In this document: one piece after another, positions 15,528 through 19,356 of the stretch | Layout: each line of letters starts with the position of its first letter | Numbering within the stretch: the stretch's first letter is position 1 | From: an uncultured Thiotrichaceae bacterium | GTDB lineage: Bacteria > Pseudomonadota > Gammaproteobacteria > Thiotrichales > Thiotrichaceae | Reading direction: 5' to 3' | Assembly (NCBI GenBank): GCA_938038645.1 | Contig: CALHTA010000057.1 | Span: 1 to 24,763, forward strand | Length of the DNA: 24,763 nt | Notes under the pieces: generated by a model | Databases searched by the model: none | What the model was told of the DNA's origin: nothing | The model's input: only the letters and a program-made list of their open reading frames with translations | Translations under genes and position numbers: made by a program

Positions 15528-16028
15528 ATGTCGACATCCCTTATAAAACGTTTCACTGCGCAAGGAATCATTATCAATGTATTACTACTGTGCAGTCTTG
15601 TTGCACTTGTTGTGGGGGTAATAGCTCCATTACTTACTTTACAGAAGCTTTATTTTATTGAAAATACTATTTCTTTAATTTCAACCATTCAAACACTCTA
15701 TAACGACAACGATTGGTTACTTTTTATCCTTATTACCGTGTTCAGCCTGTGCATTCCCGTGATAAAGATAGTGAGCCTATTACTGATAACTAATGTTGAT
15801 TTTAAAAAAGGCTCTTTTCTTGATAAGACACTTACTGTCATTGAAACCCTTGGCAAATGGTCTATGCTTGATGTCTTTGTTGTGGCCTTGCTTCTCGTTT
15901 CGGTAAAACTGGGGGCTTTAGCGAAAGTCGAAGTACATTATGGTCTATATGTATTTGCATTTTCAGTCATACTCACGATGGGTTTAAGCTTTTGGATTTA
16001 TCATTTAGCTCACAAAAAAAACCAATAA
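15528..16028 (+). CDS. Single-domain PqiA-like membrane protein
   Basis: The 166-residue protein has four hydrophobic segments (about 15-38, 62-88, 108-130, 137-160) and the PqiA-domain signature ETLGKWSMLDVFVVALLLVSVKLG, followed by a GLYVFAFSVILTMG segment. PqiA belongs to the paraquat-inducible PqiABC system, thought to move lipids across the envelope with an MCE protein PqiB. Typical PqiA has two copies of this domain in about 420 residues; here there is only one, and no MCE gene follows. The ribosome binding site is weak. It is divergent from the DUF4190-like gene. The 272 bases after it, up to the next gene, contain only AT-rich sequence with a TATTAT that could be a -10, and nothing else I recognise. 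Confidence 0.85.
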   Translation: MSTSLIKRFTAQGIIINVLLLCSLVALVVGVIAPLLTLQKLYFIENTISLISTIQTLYNDNDWLLFILITVFSLCIPVIKIVSLLLITNVDFKKGSFLDKTLTVIETLGKWSMLDVFVVALLLVSVKLGALAKVEVHYGLYVFAFSVILTMGLSFWIYHLAHKKNQ

Positions 16029-16300: not shown

Positions 16301-17707
16301 ATGATAAAAAGAGCATTATTACTACTATTACTGACCGCCGTATGGGCATTTGGTAGTTGGTGGTATTACACCTGCATGATAAAGGGGTTCTGTCGCACAG
16401 ACGGCGCATTTACTAGTGCTGCTGATAGAGCAAAAACTATCGCTACTACAGGTGCCGCTGCAGTTGCCGTTACCGCAACTGGATTGGTCAATGATGAACA
16501 AGCCACTCCTGAAACCCTAGAATCTGAGCCCACCACGGAAACAACACAGGCAACAGAAGCCGCTGATCAGGAACCTTCATCTACGGCAACTCCTTCTACT
16601 ACAAGTGAATTTATCGATCAGGATAATGATGCGATTTCTGATGAAGACGAAAGGCGTCTTGGCACAAATCCAGCTAGCGATGACAGTGACGGAGATGGCC
16701 TTAAAGATAATGAAGAGCTTGGCGCTGACCTTCAAAACCCAACCGACACGGATAAAGATGGCATTATCGACGCGCTTGATGAAGATGACGACAATGACAC
16801 TTTGCCTACACTTCAAGAAGGCACAATAGGAACAGACCCTAGAAATGCTGACACCGACGATGATGCACTGAGTGATGCTGATGAAGTCAGCAATGAAAAA
16901 ATTGGAACGAATCCACTACTCGCTGATACAGATAATGACGGAGTGTCTGACGGCAGCGAAGTCGGCTCTGAACCAAGCAATCCTATGGATACTGATAAAG
17001 ACGGTATTATTGATGCATTGGATGAAGATGATGATAATGACGGAATTCCTACCGCATTAGAAATAAAAGCCAACAGCGACCCAATGAGCCAAGATAGTGA
17101 CGGCGATGGTGTGAGCGATGGGGAAGAGTTCGGTAGCAACCCTGATCAACCAAAAGACACTGATGGTGATGGTATCTTCGATATTGTTGACTCTGACAAT
17201 GGCAGTGACGAACCTGCTACTGCAGAGGAAACTGAAGCCAGTGAGACTCCTGCTGCTTCTGCCGAAACTGAGCAAACTCCTACTGCCGAGCCTGCGACAG
17301 AAGATCAAGTCACAATTAATAAGTCTGAAAGCACTGGTGACGATGCATCATCTAAAATCACAATCCAGAAGAGTAGACTGTATTTCCCTTCACGCTCATC
17401 AAATCCTGGCCTTTCAGAAGCTGCAACCAACTACTTTAAAGAAGTAGCAACTTGGCTAAATGCTGATGACTCTCACAGAGTCACTCTGACTGGACATACT
17501 GACAGCGTAGGTAAGGCCAAAAACAATCTGGATCTTGGTTTAAAACGAGCCGTTGAAATCAAAGATATGATGGTGAAGCTTGGGGCGAATGAGTCACAAA
17601 TTGATGTTGCATCCATGGGTGAAACCCAACCTATTGCTTCTAATAAAACGGACTCAGGAAGACGTCAAAACCGACGTGTAGAATTAATTCCTTCCCTTAA
17701 ACAATAA
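16301..17707 (+). CDS. OmpA-domain protein with thrombospondin type 3 repeats, membrane-anchored
   Basis: Numbered from the ATG at 16301 (468 residues). A basic start and one hydrophobic helix (5-22) are followed by WYYTCMIKGFC with two cysteines (C25, C31). An Ala/Thr-rich linker leads to a calcium-binding thrombospondin type 3 repeat region (about 106-300) with many DxDxDG units. After a second low-complexity linker comes an OmpA C-terminal domain (about 352-465) with TGHTDSVG (D401), R416 and QNRRVEL, the peptidoglycan-binding residues of the family. The frame opens at 16253, but the strong AGGAG at 16284-16288 and the hydrophobic helix favour 16301; the spacing of 12 bases is long. Because the helix has no clear cleavage site it may stay in the inner membrane rather than be secreted. 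It is the first gene of a three-gene cluster ending at the terminator at 19331. Confidence 0.88.
   Translation: MIKRALLLLLLTAVWAFGSWWYYTCMIKGFCRTDGAFTSAADRAKTIATTGAAAVAVTATGLVNDEQATPETLESEPTTETTQATEAADQEPSSTATPSTTSEFIDQDNDAISDEDERRLGTNPASDDSDGDGLKDNEELGADLQNPTDTDKDGIIDALDEDDDNDTLPTLQEGTIGTDPRNADTDDDALSDADEVSNEKIGTNPLLADTDNDGVSDGSEVGSEPSNPMDTDKDGIIDALDEDDDNDGIPTALEIKANSDPMSQDSDGDGVSDGEEFGSNPDQPKDTDGDGIFDIVDSDNGSDEPATAEETEASETPAASAETEQTPTAEPATEDQVTINKSESTGDDASSKITIQKSRLYFPSRSSNPGLSEAATNYFKEVATWLNADDSHRVTLTGHTDSVGKAKNNLDLGLKRAVEIKDMMVKLGANESQIDVASMGETQPIASNKTDSGRRQNRRVELIPSLKQ
16745..17041 (+). repeat. 81-codon internal duplication in the thrombospondin-repeat region
   Basis: Residues 149-166 and 230-247 of the protein are identical (DTDKDGIIDALDEDDDND), exactly 81 residues (243 bases) apart. 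Ten of the 18 codons differ, all synonymously, so this is an old duplication kept by selection on the protein. Confidence 0.75.
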
Positions 17708-17722
17708 GCTATTACATGGATC

Positions 17723-17741
17723 GTAATCACTTAATGATTAC
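17723..17741 (+). other. Intercistronic hairpin
   Basis: A perfect 7-bp stem GTAATCA/TGATTAC with a 5-base loop lies between the OmpA-domain gene and the small gene, ending eight bases before the GAGG ribosome site. It has no T-tract. It might protect or process the mRNA and set the ratio of the three products. Confidence 0.35.
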
Positions 17742-17759
17742 CGTGCTTGAGGATAAAAA

Positions 17760-17909
17760 ATGTTTGAACACGCTGTAACAAAAACACATGACCTTAAAGA
17801 TGCTAGTTTAGAGCTAATTGTCATGCTAGCAGGTGCTTTTCTTTTGGGCTGTTTATTTTGCTGGGCCTTAGGCTCACGCAAAAATAAGCGCAATCAGGAG
17901 GAGCTATAA
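17760..17909 (+). CDS. 49-residue single-helix membrane protein (small, hypothetical)
   Basis: An ORF of 49 codons starts at the ATG 17760-17762, with GAGG seven bases upstream, and ends one base before the next gene. The product begins MFEHAVTKTHDLKDASLEL, has one hydrophobic helix (about 18-38, with two cysteines, C31 and C34) and ends in a basic tail (SRKNKRNQEEL). Its segment DASLELIVMLAGAFLLGC is clearly similar to DATLEIFLMLLAAFLLGW at the start of the following protein, so the two helices are paralogous. The last codons contain the AGGAGG ribosome site of the next gene. Correct spacing, ribosome site, homology to the neighbour and tight packing make it a real gene despite its size. Its function is unknown; a helix-helix partner in the membrane for the neighbour is a reasonable guess. 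Confidence 0.8.
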   Translation: MFEHAVTKTHDLKDASLELIVMLAGAFLLGCLFCWALGSRKNKRNQEEL

Positions 17910-17910
17910 T

Positions 17911-19305
17911 ATGCCAACTGATTACACTTTAATGGATGCGACTTTAGAGATCTTTCTAATGTTATTAGCAGCCTTTCTTTTGGGTTGGTTTTTCTGCTGG
18001 CTAATGAAAAAACTTTTCGGAAGTAAAAAGGTAAGCAAGCAACCTCTTGATATCAATGAAACAACGATAAAGAGACCTGAAGGAACAGGCATTGTCAGCT
18101 CTAACAGGGAAAGGTTGTACAATTCCGACCCTGACTTCGATCAGGAGCTAAACGCTCCTGAGATCGATACCCCACAAGTCAACTTGAATGAAGTAGATTT
18201 ACCCAAACAAGCTAGAGTTGAGACACCTGACTTGGATATTCCTGAGCCAACGGTTACAACGCCGAGGCCTCGCATTGACTTACCTGACTTTAATGCGCCG
18301 GATATTGGGATTGATGAGAAGCTTGCCTCAGGAAAAGCCAGCCTTGGAAAAGGCTTAGGTATGGCATCTGCTGGTATTGGAGCTGTTGCTGTTGGGGCTA
18401 GCGCTTTCAAAGATAAGGTTGTCGATAAAGCAGAAGACCTGACGGGTAACATTAACGCCCCTGAAGTGCCAGATTTATCACTCACCCCCCCTGAGCCTAC
18501 ACCAGCAGACGTCGAAATAGATCTACCTGATCTAGACATGAGTTCCAGCATTGACTCAGAGATAGACTTACCTGAAGTTGATAGCAAAAGTTTTGAGACG
18601 GAAATTGATTTACCTGAGGTTCCTGAAATAGGGGCATCAGAAATGATCGACACAGTCGATCTGGATGACTCGATTAGTTCCACAGGCACTTTAGGCGTAG
18701 CCGCTGCAGGAATTGGAGCTGCTACATTGGGAGAGGAAGCCAGCGTCGACAAGCCATTAACCGATGTTGATGACCTAAATAAAATCACTGGAATTGATGA
18801 GCAAGTTACTAGGGTTCTCAATGAAAGAGGAATATACAGCTACAAAGACCTTCAGGCCGCGAACCGTACTCAACTAAAAGAGTATCTTGATGCAACGGGT
18901 GACTCCAAGCTTCGAGAAATTGAACCGGCCAGCTGGCCGCATCAAGCGACACTTTGTGCAAATGGAAATTGGTCGAAACTCACTGAGTACCAGTCTTTTC
19001 TAACTGGCAGCAATTTAGGTGTTCGCCAAACGACTGGCCCAGAAGGCACTTCTAGCTCAGACGATCTAAAAAAAGTTGAAGGTATTGGCCCATTCTTCGA
19101 AAGCCTACTAAACGATGCGGGCATTACGACTTACGAGCAGCTCAAAAATTCGGATCGCGACACACTTAAAGAAATTATTGATGCCGCAGGACCGGATTAT
19201 CGCATGCATGAGCCAGAGACTTGGCCCTATCAAGCTGGTTTAGCCTATCGTGGAGAATGGAAAAAACTGCAAGATTATATCCACTTTATGACTGGACGTA
19301 GCTAG
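17911..19305 (+). CDS. Membrane-anchored protein with IDLP repeats and two C-terminal helix-hairpin-helix modules
   Basis: The 464-residue protein starts one base after the small gene, with AGGAGG nine bases upstream. A single helix (about 12-33) is followed by a long acidic region with repeated IDLP/VDLP motifs (for example 95-98, 122-125, 203-206, 218-221, 232-235). Two glycine/alanine-rich hydrophobic stretches (147-166 and 260-274) may touch membrane or be amphipathic. Two homologous modules of about 80 residues end the protein: 287-365 and 384-461. The second starts DDLKKVEGIGPFFESLLN and ends with TWPYQAGLAYRGEWKKL, the pattern of helix-hairpin-helix domains seen at the end of some OmpA-family and other bacterial proteins. 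The first has lost the GIGP turn (TGIDEQV). Such domains often bind nucleic acid or protein; here the role is unknown. Two repeat copies and the anchor suggest a scaffold. Confidence 0.82.
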   Translation: MPTDYTLMDATLEIFLMLLAAFLLGWFFCWLMKKLFGSKKVSKQPLDINETTIKRPEGTGIVSSNRERLYNSDPDFDQELNAPEIDTPQVNLNEVDLPKQARVETPDLDIPEPTVTTPRPRIDLPDFNAPDIGIDEKLASGKASLGKGLGMASAGIGAVAVGASAFKDKVVDKAEDLTGNINAPEVPDLSLTPPEPTPADVEIDLPDLDMSSSIDSEIDLPEVDSKSFETEIDLPEVPEIGASEMIDTVDLDDSISSTGTLGVAAAGIGAATLGEEASVDKPLTDVDDLNKITGIDEQVTRVLNERGIYSYKDLQAANRTQLKEYLDATGDSKLREIEPASWPHQATLCANGNWSKLTEYQSFLTGSNLGVRQTTGPEGTSSSDDLKKVEGIGPFFESLLNDAGITTYEQLKNSDRDTLKEIIDAAGPDYRMHEPETWPYQAGLAYRGEWKKLQDYIHFMTGRS

Positions 19306-19330
19306 AACAATCTAAACCATTAACTCTTAA

Positions 19331-19356
19331 AAGCCTCTAACTTAGAGGCTTTTTTT
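19331..19356 (+). terminator. Rho-independent terminator of the OmpA/HHH cluster
   Basis: Stem AAGCCTCT/AGAGGCTT with a short AACTT loop is followed by a run of seven T (19350-19356). It starts 25 bases after the stop codon and separates the cluster from the DUF4124 gene. Confidence 0.88.

Follow-up and report, generated by a model that had tools for sequence, protein, structure and literature searches.

What would join a peptidoglycan-binding protein to a membrane-anchored helix-hairpin-helix (HHH) protein? This question is raised by a three-gene cluster on contig CALHTA010000057.1 of an uncultured Thiotrichaceae bacterium, analysed here as one stretch of 24,763 nucleotides (the window). We attribute the cluster, with moderate confidence, to an inner-membrane complex that would bridge peptidoglycan and cytoplasm. 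As judged from the loci compared, the cluster is the decorated, one-lineage form of a wider pair, in which an anchored OmpA protein is followed by a protein with a membrane helix and HHH units. The three genes are the following.

16301..17707, + strand: gene 1, an OmpA-family protein of 468 amino acids with an N-terminal membrane helix and TSP3-like repeats
17760..17909, + strand: gene 2, a single-helix membrane protein of 49 amino acids, a stand-alone version of the gene 3 anchor helix
17911..19305, + strand: gene 3, a membrane-anchored HHH protein of 464 amino acids

The pair was followed through class and phylum surveys. The class survey gave matches in 62 genomes out of 369, from which 20 regions were opened, and a further 80 genome contigs were examined. 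The draw from the phylum of Dyadobacter (Bacteroidota) gave 76 matching genomes out of 296, of which 30 loci as well as 12 wider regions were opened; the survey of the window's own phylum (Pseudomonadota) gave 103 out of 398, with 29 loci opened besides that of the window. Pooled with these were the window and the 29 loci of its own family described below. Rows L206, L208, L210, L213 and L215 were removed in favour of the wider fetches L220-L224, as were repeated C-termini, which left 186 non-redundant HHH clusters, of which 10 at contig ends were set aside. Among these Pseudomonadota and Bacteroidota loci an OmpA gene lay directly upstream of 87 of the 104 HHH clusters whose membrane helix is clear, and adjoined 4 of the 9 with a weak helix and 1 of the 63 with no helix, counts that come from phylogenetically non-independent rows, from best matches alone and from queries biased to family-like sequences. 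The one no-helix case (L104) was scored as such since its open reading frame (ORF) was called too far upstream; by eye the helix is present, with OmpA downstream, and the score was kept. By eye, the no-helix genes include those of ribosomal and other soluble proteins that end in HHH. An earlier two-group pooling without the last set gave 85/102 against 1/47 (Fisher 6e-23, on phylogenetically non-independent rows).

Outside the Pseudomonadota the pair was found on Bacteroidota contigs of Dyadobacter, Siphonobacter, Runella, Flectobacillus, Pseudarcicella and a dozen Saprospiraceae, on single Flavobacteriales and Bacteroidales contigs and in one Acidobacteriota metagenome-assembled genome. The phylum survey added six pairs from genomes outside the window's class, which would be Alphaproteobacteria to judge from the kinds of HHH-tailed genes in that sample. 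The initial annotation had known of no described system of this make-up, and no description of an OmpA/membrane-HHH pair was found in the literature searched, a search that reached few subscription papers. The reverse order, membrane HHH and then anchored OmpA protein, was seen at L104:6835-8070 and at L057:2802-4409, the latter with immunoglobulin (Ig)-like domains as well. At L145:3735-4817 (a Thermaceae contig, scored as having no OmpA) the membrane HHH is followed by an anchored protein with Ig-like repeats and LysM, a single case that is suggestive.

Within the window's own family (the Leucothrix family) 29 loci were fetched in addition to the window, and 63 genomes were surveyed. The initial annotation had made its idea depend on the genes occurring together in relatives, and here it held: 25 of the 29 fetched loci, like the window, have OmpA immediately before the membrane-HHH gene, more than chance would give. 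Its view of the three genes as the unit was not supported, since a separate small helix gene stood between OmpA and HHH in 17 of 26 loci (genus g1, Leucothrix; g2 and g6, with named Thiothrix contigs; and g4) and was missing in the other 9 (g5, which includes Cocleimonas flava, and g8), and the wider unit consists of OmpA and the membrane-anchored HHH protein. Gene 2 is related to the N-terminus of gene 3 (E 2.7e-6 within a small set of ORFs), in agreement with the paralogous helix that had been noticed at the outset; it would copy the gene 3 helix as a separate protein and probably act as a second partner. In some Thiothrix loci a second membrane-HHH gene follows downstream. Membrane-HHH genes in tandem were observed at L110-L112, L123, L127, L139-L141, L149, L153 and L157. 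A theme of two anchors, either a small helix protein or a second HHH protein, thus recurs across different lineages.

In the genome survey the N-terminal motif of the OmpA protein was present in 49 of the 63 genomes and an HHH match in 61, including 46/46 of high quality. By coordinates compared by eye, 46 of 50 motif genes had HHH close by, on their own contig and strand. Of the remaining four, one was at a contig edge, and three, all from g7, stood beside a small helix protein with no adjacent HHH. The elements concerned, the helix of each partner and the helix-plus-motif proteins of two further loci, are these.

16304..16393, + strand: membrane helix and juxtamembrane motif W-x-Y-x-C-x-[IVL]-K-x-x-C of gene 1, residues 2-31, WWYYTCMIKGFC, from family and cross-phylum alignments
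17947..18006, + strand: membrane helix at the N-terminus of gene 3, preceded by acidic and followed by lysine-rich sequence, predicted N-out and C-in from sequence and charge statistics
L247:1456-1629 and L248:1107-1280: the helix-plus-motif proteins of 57 amino acids at the G092 and G228 loci

Loci in which one end of the pair is missing were also found. A search of the 369 class genomes with the OmpA N-terminus matched 8 of them (three of the family, G157, G272, G232, G092 and G228). G157 has OmpA together with a full membrane HHH, and G272 has OmpA with the HHH helix alone, at a contig end. In G092 and G228, which belong to another gammaproteobacterial family, the 57-residue protein has no OmpA domain and lies 2 bases upstream of the membrane-HHH gene. 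Conversely, HHH is absent and both helices are kept in the three g7 loci, as OmpA and a small helix protein. Because both helices persist when either OmpA (G092, G228) or HHH (g7) is missing, we suggest that the two helices are the meeting point of the pair, for which these missing-end loci are the best evidence. Together with the frequent adjacency, such mutual persistence points to a pairing of the helices of genes 1 and 3 within the membrane. The N-terminus search of 296 Bacteroidota genomes gave six places, five of which adjoin a membrane HHH; the sixth was a chance match. Two motif matches were rejected as chance, one in G232, antisense to a queC-like gene by eye, and one in G490, within a long unrelated reading frame.

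On which side of the membrane the HHH units lie was judged from charges. Over 82 unique pairs the mean charge was −1.13 before the HHH helix and +0.99 after it, and the after side was more positive in 58 pairs and equal in 12. Because of these flanking charges, by the positive-inside rule, HHH is predicted to face the cytoplasm, not the wall side. Gene 3 would then begin with a short tail outside and cross the membrane with a single helix; a flexible acidic linker in the cytoplasm would lead to at least one C-terminal HHH unit. The OmpA helix fitted the same rule in 46 pairs, with 17 equal; whatever the charges of its helix, the OmpA domain is expected to be periplasmic because it must meet peptidoglycan. 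The initial annotation had placed the HHH modules within a membrane-to-wall scaffold, which the charges do not support, and a scaffold that spans the inner membrane would describe the system better than one restricted to the space between membrane and wall.

The periplasmic side would be formed by gene 1, in which the following parts were found.

16604..17200, + strand: TSP3-like acidic repeat region, lineage-specific, residues about 102-300, sub-threshold TSP3_bac
17405..17674, + strand: OmpA peptidoglycan-binding domain with the conserved Asp and Arg, PF00691

The membrane helix and OmpA domain read from the sequence at the outset were both recovered, the helix as residues 2-26 of a structure model and the domain as residues 369-458 (PF00691, E 2e-18, 67 bits against a Pfam cut-off of 27.2). 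In domains of this family an Asp and an Arg bind diaminopimelate. The Asp is kept in 80/82 and the Arg in 82/82 of the OmpA partners, and the window has both; gene 1 thus looks like an anchored peptidoglycan binder. It would start with a signal anchor whose helix ends in a W-Y-C-IK-C collar, and its C-terminal OmpA domain would grip peptidoglycan, as expected from the family. A collar that reads W-x-[YH]-x-C-x-[IVL]-K-x-x-C, or nearly so, lies just outside the helix in the window's family and in several Bacteroidota. Many OmpA partners from outside the family have a second OmpA-like stretch, and BON domains were found in three tested partners (L091, L107, L211).

As to the calcium-type repeats claimed for gene 1, TSP3-like stretches are present, with five stretches matching TSP3_bac (PF18884, E 9.7e-5) and 10 D.D.D-type motifs by regular expression, but their score of 22.6 bits stays below the Pfam cut-off of 25. 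The structure model has confident blocks at about 102-176 and 200-300. These repeats, folding confidently in the model, and an OmpA domain that by family binds peptidoglycan speak for a calcium-tuned scaffold between membrane and wall, with all three proteins periplasmic and the TSP3 repeats setting its stiffness. Against it, the flanking charges put HHH inside, and by regular expression the TSP3-like motifs of the 82 partners are confined to the window's family and are absent even at L046, L049, L051, L055 and L115, five loci that are of the family or family-like; L131 also scores zero, but its ORF call ends early. Because of this absence outside the family and from some members we rejected TSP3 as the core of the system, find a length set by calcium not supported as the core idea, and consider such a scaffold very unlikely. 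In the bridging complex the repeats would be a family-specific spacer.

The architecture of gene 1 also invites comparison with known peptidoglycan binders. Binders of the MotB/TolR/ZorB type have a single N-terminal inner-membrane helix, a periplasmic OmpA-type domain and a membrane partner. Gene 1 shares this anchored-OmpA architecture and partially matches MotB and ZorB models, whereas its partner is a single-helix HHH protein and not a multi-helix ring of the MotA/ExbB type. These partial matches would suggest a defence or motor system akin to Zorya, MotAB or TolQR, which we rejected as most improbable: the matches are restricted to the OmpA part (ZorB at about residues 391-465), no MotA/ZorA/ExbB-like domain was detected in the seven proteins scanned with Pfam (the three of the cluster and four neighbours), and genes 2 and 3 gave no PADLOC match at E <= 0.1. 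The relatives of the OmpA domain in the PDB include Rv0899, Pal, YfiB and MotB. The domain is common to gene 1, Pal, YiaD and Rv0899, but no lipobox was seen by eye in gene 1, which is followed by an HHH partner; an assignment as Pal lipoprotein was rejected, TIGR02802 scoring 67.9 bits against a cut-off of 125.35. Rv0899 combines BON and OmpA, as do the partners L091, L107 and L211.

The cytoplasmic side would be formed by gene 3, with these parts following its helix.

18043..18750, + strand: acidic linker of IDLP repeats, from sequence
18769..19005, + strand: HHH unit 1, residues 287-365, with a degenerate hairpin (GID), from model and fold matches
19060..19293, + strand: HHH unit 2, residues 384-461, with hairpin GIGPF and tail WPYQAGLA, from PF14520 and model

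The two HHH modules had been placed correctly from the letters alone: PF14520 (HHH_5) matches gene 3 in two stretches (E 9.5e-10, 39.3 bits against a cut-off of 27), and a model of the two units has a mean pLDDT of 89.9, with the fold confirmed by matches to the helix-hairpin-helix domains of Pol theta, RadA, NusA AR2 and Pol iota. The linker varies from 39 to 797 amino acids over the 82 pairs. In the linkers of IDLP type (window 18322-18441; L031-L035) we observed recurring Gly/Ala-rich, Lys-bearing stretches, GKGLGxAxAGIGAVAxGA..KDK, which are amphipathic in look and might touch the membrane.

Relatives of gene 3 are named either 'helix-hairpin-helix domain-containing protein' or, by JGI (Joint Genome Institute), 'predicted flap endonuclease-1-like 5' DNA nuclease'. 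A nuclease was rejected, as a Pfam scan at E <= 1 gave no nuclease domain; the NCBIfam models of a RecB-like nuclease and of DNA polymerase IV match the HHH part alone and far below cut-off. If the cytoplasmic HHH units bound chromosomal DNA, the pair would pin the nucleoid to peptidoglycan. Such a wall-to-DNA tether draws on the fold matches to DNA polymerase theta, RadA and Pol iota and on the GIGPK hairpin, which 39 of 50 aligned C-terminal units retain. The 110 HHH units examined are mostly acidic, however (mean charge −2.55, 85 negative and 14 positive), which speaks against simple DNA binding, and we consider the tether unlikely. A protein-holding role is tentatively favoured over DNA binding because of this acidity, because the hairpins of the window read GIGPF and GID, and because the nearest sequences of known structure belong to protein-O of the Dinoroseobacter reaction center-light-harvesting 1 (RC-LH1) complex and the 41-kDa subunit of complex I. 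In the bridging complex, HHH would probably hold a protein or some large assembly at wall-fixed sites, which is the weakest step of the proposal.

ComEA is a membrane-anchored protein with HHH at its C-terminal end that binds incoming DNA in the periplasm. Gene 3 is likewise membrane-anchored with a terminal HHH, whereas its HHH is predicted to be cytoplasmic and its units are mostly acidic. No model named ComEA was among the 15 NCBIfam matches at E <= 1.

The C-terminal unit is also found on other proteins. Partial NCBIfam matches of the HHH unit were to PRK12278, PRK12311, PRK12373 and PhaH, that is, to tails on bL21, uS2, NuoE and phasins, and by eye it was observed as a C-terminal tail on bL27-, bL21-, bL17-, NuoE- and phasin-like proteins (L205, L207, L216, L259, L260, L266 and others). 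The tail may be a general tag. These proteins share the unit with gene 3 but have no membrane anchor, and the no-helix clusters rarely adjoin OmpA, as counted above. Protein-O of Dinoroseobacter shibae (8yy9_O) comes closer, with a membrane N-terminus and a C-terminal domain shared with gene 3 (E 1e-10); it differs in being bound to a photosystem and in having more than one helix at its N-terminus, along with a disulfide, and its gene lies between nuoE and nuoF (PMC12079452). The same paper calls the function of these C-terminal domains obscure.

A protein that combines membrane helices with this unit in such a gene context fits a reading in which the genes are co-transcribed with separate functions, gene 1 serving as a general wall anchor and gene 3 recruiting HHH-tagged enzymes to the membrane, without a complex. 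The membrane-HHH genes that stand without an adjoining OmpA (17/104) agree with it, while the adjacency across phyla and the persistence of both helices at loci that lack one end domain or the other argue against it; we regard separate functions as rather unlikely.

Several observations weigh against the bridging complex. The 17 membrane-HHH clusters without OmpA come from the Dyadobacter-phylum sample (7), the 80 contigs (4), one group of the class sample (3: L101, L105, L106), g3 of the family (2) and the phylum sample (1), and 87/104 is not an unbiased rate, as the HHH queries partly include the helix and best matches alone were opened. The charges around the HHH helix are contrary to the prediction in 12 of the 82 pairs and tied in 12; those of the OmpA helix fit in no more than 46 and are contrary in 19. 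Even a loose form of the cysteine motif is matched by no more than 45 of the 82 OmpA partners. Finally, the three g7 genomes carry HHH matches elsewhere, and one g7 genome, G023, has a second motif/OmpA locus, where the next gene encodes a helix protein whose HHH is divergent.

A more far-reaching possibility, which we consider doubtful, is that the pair represents a widespread, undescribed transenvelope linker, whose core of two helices would couple peptidoglycan to a cytoplasmic cargo held by HHH, in functional parallel to the linker of nucleoskeleton and cytoskeleton (LINC) bridge of eukaryotes. The cargo could be DNA, or assemblies with the same HHH tag, for instance ribosomal proteins, complex I or granules. 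Were this true, many proteobacterial and bacteroidotal genomes would carry a conserved unnamed device joining the wall to the cell interior, and there would be a testable role for the HHH unit, which ribosomal, respiratory, granule and photosynthetic proteins carry as well.

The surroundings of the cluster were also inspected. The ORF list gives 16253 as the start of gene 1; we favour 16301 because the ORFs of relatives begin at the equivalent Met (MIK... in the alignment). The compact layout described initially was confirmed by the ORF list and a terminator scan: all three genes are on the + strand, with 52 bases between genes 1 and 2 and a single base (17910) between genes 2 and 3, and a terminator directly follows gene 3. 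Terminator-like sites in the region numbered 12, against a mean of 3.9 in shuffled sequence. Two features flank the cluster.

19329..19353, + strand: intrinsic terminator after the cluster, a stem of 11 pairs (4 G-C) and then a T-run
15528..16028, + strand: PqiA-domain membrane protein upstream of the cluster, PF04403, E 7.6e-24

A single-lobe PqiA-type gene lies directly upstream of OmpA in the window and in all 14 fetched loci of g1, g5 and g8, and was not found in the remaining 15 of the 29 fetched family loci. It may be a local partner of the OmpA/HHH cluster. By eye, a PqiA-type gene is present as well in L236, a g8 locus at a contig end.

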